From Candidatus Jorgensenbacteria bacterium GW2011_GWB1_50_10 (GTDB taxonomy: Bacteria; Patescibacteriota; Minisyncoccia; UBA6257; GWB1-50-10): a stretch of DNA of 38,927 bases. A program made the position numbers and the translations under genes. This document shows, one piece after another, positions 1,789 through 4,621 of this stretch. The first letter of the stretch is position 1. Every line of letters starts with the position of its first letter. The stretch spans positions 1 to 38,927 of the forward strand of contig LCQK01000001.1 in assembly GCA_001004105.1 (NCBI GenBank). The letters are read 5' to 3'. A model generated the notes under the pieces. That model searched no databases. It was not told the DNA's origin and was given only the letters and a program-made list of their open reading frames with translations.

Positions 1789-1935
1789 AGAATGTTTTCG
1801 CCTCTATTAATTTCTATTATACCTGCTACAGCTTCTGTCAATAGAATGATGTTTACCTTTCTCCTTTAATTCGCGCGAATTAGAGAAAATGACTTGGGAA
1901 AATATTATGCGTCAGGAAGAGGTATAATTAAGCTG

Positions 1936-2820
1936 ATGGCCGAAATCCAAAAACTTTTGAAGGAATATTTGGACTATCTGGAGATTGAAAAAAACCGGTC
2001 ACCGCTCACGCGGGAAAACTACGAACGGTACATAAATCTGTTTTTGAAAAGCACCGGGGTGACGAATCTCAAAGACCTAGACGAGGAAGTAATCAGGGAT
2101 TTCCGATTGAAGCTCGCCCGCGGCAGTTTGAAGAAAATCACCCAAGGATATTACGTAATCGCTCTCCGGCAATTTTTGAAATTTCTGGTGAAGCGCGGCT
2201 ACAAAGTCGTGCCGCCGGAGACAATAGAACTCCCTAAAATTTCCCGCCGCGACATTGAAACCTTGGATTACGCCGAACTGGAGCGACTGATGGACGCCCC
2301 GAAGGGCAGGACGCTCCGCGCCCTGCGGGACAAGGCGATTTTGGAAACGTTTTTCTCAACCGGCCTGCGGCTCTCCGAACTCTGCAATCTGAACAGGAAC
2401 ATAGATTTGAAGCGCGGCGAGATTTCGGTGCGCGGCAAAGGCGATAAATTAAGGGTGGTTTTCCTCTCCGACCGCGCCAAAGGAGCGATTAAAAATTATC
2501 TGGAAAAACGCGAAGACGTGGATGAAGCGCTTTTTGCGAGCTTGACCAAGCAAGGCAAGGCCATCGGCCGGATTACGCCCCGGGCGGTAGAACGGATGAT
2601 TGATGGCCGCGGCCGTGAAGCTGGTATCGCAAAAAAGGTACACCCTCACATGATACGCCACCAGTTCGCCACCGACCTTCTAATAAACGGCGCGGACTTG
2701 CGTTCGGTCCAGGAATTATTGGGCCACGCAAACATCGCCACTACCCAAATCTACACTCACATTACCAATAAAGAACTTAAAGAAGTCCACGAAGCGTTTC
2801 ACGCCCGCCGCCGCAAATAG
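1936..2820 (+). CDS. Tyrosine recombinase, XerC/XerD-like
   Basis: Phage-integrase fold: N-terminal SAM-like core domain, then ...STGLRLSELCNL...HPHMIRHQFATDLL...LRSVQELLGHANIATTQIYTH (catalytic R..HxxR..H..Y). Start moved from 1894 to ATG 1936 because TATAAT lies at 1923-1928. Confidence 0.93.
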   Translation: MAEIQKLLKEYLDYLEIEKNRSPLTRENYERYINLFLKSTGVTNLKDLDEEVIRDFRLKLARGSLKKITQGYYVIALRQFLKFLVKRGYKVVPPETIELPKISRRDIETLDYAELERLMDAPKGRTLRALRDKAILETFFSTGLRLSELCNLNRNIDLKRGEISVRGKGDKLRVVFLSDRAKGAIKNYLEKREDVDEALFASLTKQGKAIGRITPRAVERMIDGRGREAGIAKKVHPHMIRHQFATDLLINGADLRSVQELLGHANIATTQIYTHITNKELKEVHEAFHARRRK

Positions 2821-2825
2821 CTCTT

Positions 2826-3704
2826 ATGAAAATGTTTGAAAAAATAAAAAGTTCTCTTCAATCGCCAGCCAGGTTTATTGTCTCTTATATATTTGTGAAC
2901 CTTATTTTTTTCTGGGTGATTGGAATAATTAATAATTTCAATTATGCGGTATTTTGGAGTTGTGATTTTTTTTGGGGATGCTGGCCTTCTCTTTTAGGAA
3001 TAGTCAGATATATACTAATTTTTGGAATCCCTCTTTTAGCTATCCCACTTTTTGGACTAACAAAGAAGTTTTTCTTTTCATTAATCTTTATCTTGATAAT
3101 TTTAACAATATTCAATTTTGGAGTTTTTAATTATTATTCTAAGCAAGTGGATACTGTTGCTGATATCAGGTCTATTGGGTCAATGGAGCATCTTTCTGTA
3201 GAGAATTTCTCTTATCAATTAAATGACGGTTCTAATCTTACTGTTGATTTCATTATTAATACAATATCCCTTAAGCCATCAAAGAATTATGTTTTCCGTT
3301 TGGTATTCAGCTCTGAAGAAAATGGCGAAGAGATTAAACTATCAAATTTCAATTATTACATTTTTGACGATTATTATCCCCTTTCATTTAATATATCCAA
3401 AGAAGATGATGGGGCTCATTTTCAAGAGATTATAACCAAAAGAGGAACTAAAAAATATATTCCTTATATCATTTTAGGAAGAGATGAATCATCTGCCATA
3501 CAAAAATTAGAACCAAAAATTAGAAAGTCAGAGTATCTGTGTTCATTGGCAATTGTGTGTGGTCAGGATATGTTTAAGCTAATTCATCCATCTTACATTT
3601 ATGCGGGCTCTCCTTTATTTTTCAATGATAACAATATTTTTTTCGATAAAAACATAGTTGATATTGGAATAAAGAAAATTAGAGACCCCTTACAAATTCC
3701 ATAA
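2826..3704 (+). CDS. Hypothetical membrane protein, AT-rich
   Basis: 292-aa ORF with several N-terminal hydrophobic helices; visibly more AT-rich than its neighbours; starts 6 nt after the recombinase stop. Confidence 0.65.
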   Translation: MKMFEKIKSSLQSPARFIVSYIFVNLIFFWVIGIINNFNYAVFWSCDFFWGCWPSLLGIVRYILIFGIPLLAIPLFGLTKKFFFSLIFILIILTIFNFGVFNYYSKQVDTVADIRSIGSMEHLSVENFSYQLNDGSNLTVDFIINTISLKPSKNYVFRLVFSSEENGEEIKLSNFNYYIFDDYYPLSFNISKEDDGAHFQEIITKRGTKKYIPYIILGRDESSAIQKLEPKIRKSEYLCSLAIVCGQDMFKLIHPSYIYAGSPLFFNDNNIFFDKNIVDIGIKKIRDPLQIP

Positions 3705-3735
3705 ACAAAAATCCAAAGGGGGGAATAAGTTGTGC

Positions 3736-3808
3736 GTTCAATCCTCTCACAAATAAAATAACTCACAATTGTGAGTTATTTTATTTGTGCGCGCTGAGAG
3801 GATTGAAC
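3736..3808. repeat. Long interrupted inverted repeat; probable bidirectional terminator mirroring the tRNA-Val 3' end
   Basis: Perfect 40-bp palindrome ACAAATAAAATAACTCACAATTGTGAGTTATTTTATTTGT (3749-3788), flanked by GTTCAATCCTCTCA (3736-3749) and its reverse complement TGAGAGGATTGAAC (3795-3808). Confidence 0.9.
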
Positions 3809-3859
3809 TCCCGACCCTCGCAGTGTAAATGCGATGCTCTACCACTGAGCTAAGCGCGC
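3788..3859 (-). tRNA. tRNA-Val (anticodon UAC)
   Basis: Reverse strand GCGCGCTTAGCTCAGTGGTAGAGCATCGCATTTACACTGCGAGGGTCGGGAGTTCAATCCTCTCAGCGCGCA: cloverleaf, anticodon loop TTTACAC, no encoded CCA. Confidence 0.93.
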
Positions 3860-3958: not shown

Positions 3959-4621
3959 ATGGCCCGACTTAAAGACAGACAACATGCTCTTATTCTACGG
4001 AAAGAAGGAAAAAGCTACAGTCAGATAAAATCTTCTATCGGTGTAAGTAAAGGTACTCTAAGCTACTGGCTTAGAGATTTTCCATTACCAGAGGAGCGAA
4101 TTCGTGAACTCCGAGATTGGAGCCAACAACGGATAGAACGCTACCGGCAAACGAGATTAAGAACAAAGGAAGATAGGTTAAATAAAATTTATTTTGAACA
4201 AAAGAGGATTATTTTCCCGCTTTCTAAAAGAGATCTATTAATCGCTGGCCTCTTTCTTTATTGGGGCGAAGGTTCAAAATCAAAATTACCGGAATTAGAA
4301 GTTGCTAACACGGATCCCGCAGTACCAAAATTCTTTATTTACTGGGTCACAAAATTTCTAAAATTAGAAAAATCAAAAATAAAAGCCCATCTTCATCTCT
4401 ATAACGATATGGACGTTGCGAAGGAAATAAATTTTTGGTCTTCTGCGCTTGATATTCCAAAAACACAATTCACGAAACCGTATATCAAGAAGAATTCTTC
4501 TGAATTAATAAATCGTGGAACTTTTGGACATGGTACTTGTACTATCCGAATTGGAAACGCAAGAGTTGGCGAAAAGGTCCAAATGGGATTAAAATCAATC
4601 CGAGATCGATTCGGCCCGTAG
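3959..4621 (+). CDS. HTH protein with LAGLIDADG-like C-terminal region
   Basis: N-terminal HTH (ALILRKEGKSYSQIKSSIGVSKGTLSYWLRDF); C-terminal LLIAGLFLYWGEGSKSK...AKEINFWSSALDI resembles LAGLIDADG (xxAGLxxxxGEGS). Stop TAG is inside the downstream tRNA. Confidence 0.6.
   Translation: MARLKDRQHALILRKEGKSYSQIKSSIGVSKGTLSYWLRDFPLPEERIRELRDWSQQRIERYRQTRLRTKEDRLNKIYFEQKRIIFPLSKRDLLIAGLFLYWGEGSKSKLPELEVANTDPAVPKFFIYWVTKFLKLEKSKIKAHLHLYNDMDVAKEINFWSSALDIPKTQFTKPYIKKNSSELINRGTFGHGTCTIRIGNARVGEKVQMGLKSIRDRFGP

Follow-up and report, generated by a model that had tools for sequence, protein, structure and literature searches.

Target-tailored mirror elements at tRNA gene ends of Patescibacteria and a probable decayed member behind a tRNA-Val gene

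Introduction

Several described systems, among them integron cassettes, share features with the locus considered here. Like these cassettes and their attC sites, the elements described below have a short site that folds and whose outer arms are complementary, contain no recombinase within the unit, and form tandem cassettes in which the inserted unit ends in the site; most of them carry no gene, some do. As in attC, this site folds into an imperfect hairpin, the arm of which contains bases that do not pair. In contrast to attC with its fixed RYYYAAC/GTTRRRY boxes, however, the outer arms of 11-16 nt are copied from the target, the core is conserved in sequence, and T-loops of tRNAs or conserved motifs of proteins serve as targets. 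Arms derived from the T-loop read GTTCRAN / NTYGAAC and thus deviate from the R box GTTRRRY / RYYYAAC, while arms at protein targets differ entirely.

Integrative and conjugative elements (ICEs), prophages, and other integrative elements in tRNA genes also enter near the tRNA 3' end, restore the gene, and leave the old end as a displaced direct copy. Unlike these, the elements described here measure only about 150-200 nt, encode no integrase, carry an inverted target copy and a folded core, and occur with the same core at tens of isotypes. REP/REPIN sequences with RAYT transposases and IS200/IS605 elements are likewise hairpin-based, non-autonomous, and present in many copies, but to our knowledge REPs have no target-tailored arms, and the presence of Y1 transposases tracks the elements described here only weakly. 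Group IIC introns insert behind terminators and attC-like hairpins; the elements, in contrast, have no Rfam intron match, and reverse transcriptase does not track their presence.

The window analyzed here is the whole stretch of 38,927 nucleotides of contig LCQK01000001.1 from Candidatus Jorgensenbacteria bacterium GW2011_GWB1_50_10. A feature behind its tRNA-Val gene is best explained as what decay has left of a tRNA-end mirror element, the name used here for a family of small integrative elements or cassettes of Patescibacteria that are tailored to their targets (probability about 0.68 for the explanation as a whole). This family has apparently not been described so far: the open-access literature that was searched contained no description of it, and a search against Rfam 15 gave only tRNA matches over threshold and no family for the element.

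The tRNA-Val locus

The segment mirrored downstream of tRNA-Val is the 3' half of the gene from the T-loop to the 3' end, with the mirror proper corresponding to the 3' half of T-loop and T-stem (Table 1). As originally predicted, the mirror GTTCAATCCTCTCA is an exact inverse of TGAGAGGATTGAAC at 3795-3808 (14/14 nt; extended arm 21 nt, 86%) and lacks the 7-nt acceptor strand. By our estimate, chance alone would give about 2e-5 matches of 14 nt per tRNA at a distance of up to 200 nt. The adjoining palindrome is indeed perfect, but comprises 42 nt instead of the 40 bp stated originally. Its hairpin (-19.2 kcal/mol) is likely to be a bidirectional terminator for tRNA-Val and for a convergent gene ending at 3704, and relatives have a terminator-like hairpin at the equivalent position.

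Table 1. Positions of features at and near the tRNA-Val locus in the window
Feature	Position	Strand	Basis or remark
Target gene tRNA-Val(TAC)	3787..3859	-	ARAGORN; Rfam RF00005, 70.2 bits
Perfect palindrome, 42 nt (21+21), containing an AT-rich hairpin	3748..3789	.	Arms 3748-3768 / 3769-3789, no loop, 100% complementary
Mirror, TGAGAGGATTGAAC on the minus strand; left arm of the element's P1	3736..3749	-	Homologous mirrors in complete elements
GCACAA directly behind the mirror; putative end of the lost direct copy (...GCGCGCACAA)	3730..3735	-	Sequence
XerC/D-like tyrosine recombinase	1894..2820	+	Only PF00589 match of the genome
220-aa protein with HTH-like N-terminus	3959..4621	+	Between tRNA-Val and tRNA-Ile

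The hexanucleotide GCACAA is probably all that is left of a second, direct copy of the tRNA 3' end, namely its last 6 nt, although 6 nt alone might match by chance. The covariance model R1 for the conserved core of the family (see below) has no match anywhere in the window. The locus is therefore regarded as a remnant, comparable to the tRNA-Gly locus of sister genome G039, which is near-identical to that of G040 and has kept the mirror, while the core present in G040 is gone. At tRNA-Val, core and direct copy would have been lost and terminator and mirror left, and the assignment to the family rests on the mirror and the 6 nt behind it.

Two further genes near the locus are included in Table 1. 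A coding stretch seemingly similar to that of the 220-aa protein lies between the same two tRNA genes in genome G037 (L014).

Anatomy and tailoring of complete elements

In 123 of 134 distinct tRNA genes of this genome and its relatives, the longest mirror of T-arm and acceptor measures 4-8 nt; the other 11 have mirrors of 10-15 nt. As no gene has one of 9 nt, the long mirrors form a separate class. Other tRNA genes had been proposed as places to look for the arrangement, and complete versions are in fact present at tRNA-Tyr and tRNA-Asn of the window's own genome. These consist of the tRNA gene, a mirror of its own T-arm, a conserved folded core of about 85 nt, and the tRNA 3' end repeated in direct orientation. 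The spacer between tRNA and mirror is a terminator at tRNA-Tyr and a few nt at tRNA-Asn, and the conserved core stretch contains GGGAAGGGGGTCGGGGAAACGGGAGTTTCCCCGTGGTGGAAGTACTGAAACCGCAAGGTGTCAG at both.

The covariance model R1 was built from six aligned long-mirror tRNA sequences, in which 18 of the 35 predicted pairs have compensatory changes. In 84 distinct aligned R1 copies, double-sided changes are found in 31 of 35 pairs, with 514 double-change cells versus 149 after shuffling. Pairing is possible in 89.8% of the alignment cells, compared to 75.0% in shuffled and 34-52% in slid alignments, and reaches 97-98% in the core hairpins. Thus, the R1 core is folded and under strong covariation. 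Among the wobbles of the core helices, G.U exceeds A.C (16 vs 6 in A3, 10 vs 4 in A4), which slightly favors the tRNA-sense strand; however, wobbles are scarce and the alignments had been made to fit this very strand, so that the counts do not separate RNA from single-stranded DNA.

Mirror and direct copy together form helix P1, which is interrupted at one position, where the direct copy has T or C in about nine of ten cases; tandem G.A occurs in 27 of the 84 copies. In the displaced copy, the base before the T-stem is T or C regardless of the base in the mirror, suggesting that the end of the displaced T-loop is probably part of the core.

The mirrors are tailored to their targets. They score 11.75 against their own tRNA and 6.96 against other isotypes, and in 2000 permutations the observed sum was never reached, neither with the whole mirror nor with the T-stem/acceptor part alone. 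Furthermore, the fit of the mirrors to the displaced copy is poorer than that to the functional tRNA (p=1e-10). Some mirrors, such as that at tRNA-Ala of G032, match an older T-loop and not the present one.

The same layout is found with a second core. The tRNA-Val elements of G014, G020, and G029 have a core unrelated to R1, and a covariance model for this core family R2 (CGCCGGAGC..GAGGCGGTGCCCAGCCCGA; loci L299-L328 in G029, G015, G023, and G014) has matches in 29 of 99 relatives with up to 24 copies per genome. Behind tRNA genes, R2 cores are also accompanied by a tailored mirror and a direct copy and form arrays, for example at L319 with a spacing of about 178 nt. The layout is thus the underlying principle and is used by more than one core.

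Alleles, arrays, and cargo

Comparison of related genomes reveals different allele states. The tRNA-Ala locus is empty in G036 and G006 and occupied in G032 and G025, with G032 having a second unit in tandem with an identical terminator. At tRNA-Pro, G040 and G021 have different core types, and the locus is plain in G031, the flank of which differs. Tandem arrays of 164-nt units are also present.

Most copies contain only a terminator between target and mirror, but at three loci this space holds cargo of 1.1-2.9 kb, the open reading frames of which do not encode integrases. The 1.1-kb cargo encodes a 277-aa secreted-type protein, the 2.0-kb cargo a 271-aa protein and a protein with metallo-beta-lactamase fold, and the 2.9-kb cargo PsbP-like and NYN proteins. 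At the 2.0-kb locus, the mirror lies 2046 nt away and still fits its tRNA over 15 nt.

Cores tend to group by genome and not by isotype, although many forks of the tree are weakly supported, and G047 has identical cores at tRNA-Asp and tRNA-Lys. Simple isotype-specific cassettes are thus disfavored by the core tree. As clustering by genome is hard to reconcile with a pre-made cassette for each isotype, a part of the route is missing.

Protein-coding targets and a possible role at the RNA level

Apart from plain tRNA genes, elements are found at the ends of protein genes, which were named from their sequence and not by database search. The targets include the 5' ends of fusA (HIDAGKTT), typA (HVDHGKTT), lepA (HIDHGK), rnhA (GG(S/A)RGNPGP), and rplK (NPAPP(I/V)G), where the core is antisense to the gene, as well as the 3' ends of rpmG and mnmA. 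At each site, the respective gene is mirrored and its original end lies displaced on the far side of the core, indicating that gene ends are replaced, not broken. Duplicated tRNA 3' ends and duplicated start regions of fusA, rplK, and rnhA are therefore possible in these genomes. At L268, the element lies directly behind a tRNA-Thr gene called with an intron by ARAGORN, and the tRNA gene with an element directly behind it at L159 probably also bears an intron; both introns have group I-like sequence.

The elements could alternatively be cis-acting RNA switches on tRNA supply. Here, the core would be the sensor, and the mirror would have two alternative partners: the T-arm, in which case the cloverleaf is blocked, or the direct copy that follows the core. 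Such a switch would be in line with the tailoring of the mirror to its own tRNA and with the riboswitch-like covariation of the core. The original prediction had also suggested a fold competing with the cloverleaf, and on paper this fold exists: tRNA, trailer, and mirror of the window fold with -54.0 kcal/mol when left free and with -49.3 kcal/mol when the cloverleaf is enforced, a difference of 4.7 kcal/mol in favor of the misfold. As a function, however, it is unlikely because a terminator-like hairpin precedes the mirror, and among the 56 spacers of 25 nt or more in complete family members, 48 contain a stable hairpin ahead of the mirror. The antisense orientation of the core at the five protein-gene 5' ends makes a single role at the RNA level unlikely as well. 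Together, these two observations suggest that the tRNA misfold is probably a by-product. In addition, cargo of 1-3 kb can separate tRNA and mirror, and presence among sister genomes is sporadic. An RNA switch is thus an unlikely explanation.

Search for a partner enzyme

None of the enzymes considered as partner fits the presence pattern of the elements. The integron integrase model TIGR02249 had no match above cut-off in any of the 99 genomes. Tyrosine recombinases do not track element presence (p=0.28), and none was found in six element-bearing genomes; the same lack of association applies to reverse transcriptase (p=0.55). Y1-type proteins, present in 36 of the genomes, track the elements weakly (p=0.02). 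In G066 and G085, in-frame TGA codons occur in integrase and reverse-transcriptase genes of one family (f26) that are intact in other respects, suggesting that TGA codes for an amino acid in these genomes.

The elements might also be remnants of a conventional integrative element that targets tRNA genes via the att site of a tyrosine integrase, with the hairpins being incidental. This would account for the restored tRNA 3' end, the displaced second end, and the cargo in some copies. It is nevertheless quite unlikely, as the cores are conserved and covary across genera, no integrase gene is found inside, and the same core occurs on many isotypes within one genome. Moreover, we know of no att site of which an inverted target copy is part.

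Proposed route of insertion

For the family of mirror elements, a route can be proposed in which the target strand is read as L|R, with L being about GTTCGAAT and R the remainder of the tRNA 3' end. A unit consisting of R, cargo, mirror, and core would enter between L and R; the new copy of R would restore the gene end, and the old end would be displaced behind the core. Complete elements have the order L-R-(terminator or cargo genes)-R'L'(mirror)-core-R2, where R2 denotes the direct copy and not the core family. By analogy, the hairpin folded from mirror, core, and direct copy may play the part that attC has in integron cassettes and serve as the site of recombination, presumably in single-stranded form and recognized by an enzyme acting in trans. 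The better fit of the mirror to the restored end would be explained because both would derive from the same inserted unit, and the occurrence of one core type on many isotypes per genome implies that the mirror must be re-made from the target. Neither circular intermediates nor movement of the elements were observed.

It is conceivable, at slightly less than even odds, that these are programmable insertion elements, in which the folded core adopts an inverted copy of the gene end it has entered, uses it as a recombination or guide arm, spreads over tens of isotypes and protein-gene ends, and builds cassettes without an integrase of its own. If so, a phylum with tiny genomes would keep a mobile system that enters most essential genes without breaking them and is re-tailored for each target. 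This would provide a route for gene gain in Patescibacteria and a new model of how a target is recognized, namely through an arm that has been copied, and perhaps even a programmable insertion tool.

The suggestion that the tRNA-Val locus is a scar of a foldback or replication event came nearer to these elements insofar as a scar is concerned, yet the scar appears to be that of a widespread element and not of a single foldback. A template switch without any mobile element, in which replication turned back at the palindrome of the terminator and used the T-arm as template, agrees with the perfect palindrome of the window and the mirror abutting it. As a general account it is refuted by the conserved core, the direct copy, and the recurrence at tens of tRNAs and protein genes, and a mirror that fits its tRNA from 2 kb away is also at odds with it. 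This makes it a very improbable explanation, although foldback may have polished the palindrome of the window. A chimeric foldback introduced by the assembly is excluded, since the arrangement recurs independently in dozens of genomes.

Distribution

The covariance models R1 and R2 make the family searchable. Of 99 relatives, 53 have R1 matches (46 of the 88 with good genome quality), with 281 copies among the matches listed, up to 14 copies per genome, and a best E-value of 6e-38. Matches are also found in 35 of 380 genomes sampled across the phylum. For 68 of 84 distinct matches, a tRNA gene on the same strand ends no more than 150 nt upstream of the start, mostly at a distance of 30-60 nt, and 37 anticodons are represented. 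An exact-pattern scan of 84,980 species yielded 72 loci, which are Patescibacterial wherever the title names a lineage (Jorgensen-, Lipton-, Colwell-, Harrison-, Taylor-, Moran-, Uhr-, and Berkelbacteria, among others), except for one metagenome-assembled genome labelled Nanoarchaeota. Viral contigs had no exact match to the core pattern. The R1 copy in the genome labelled Nanoarchaeota lies at the 3' end of mnmA (L250) and reflects either misbinning or transfer across domains. At L210, L238, L241, and L270, the R1 core is intergenic and not at a gene end, and is preceded by ATTCATCATCCGCA or a sequence resembling it, a hairpin, and the mirror of this sequence.
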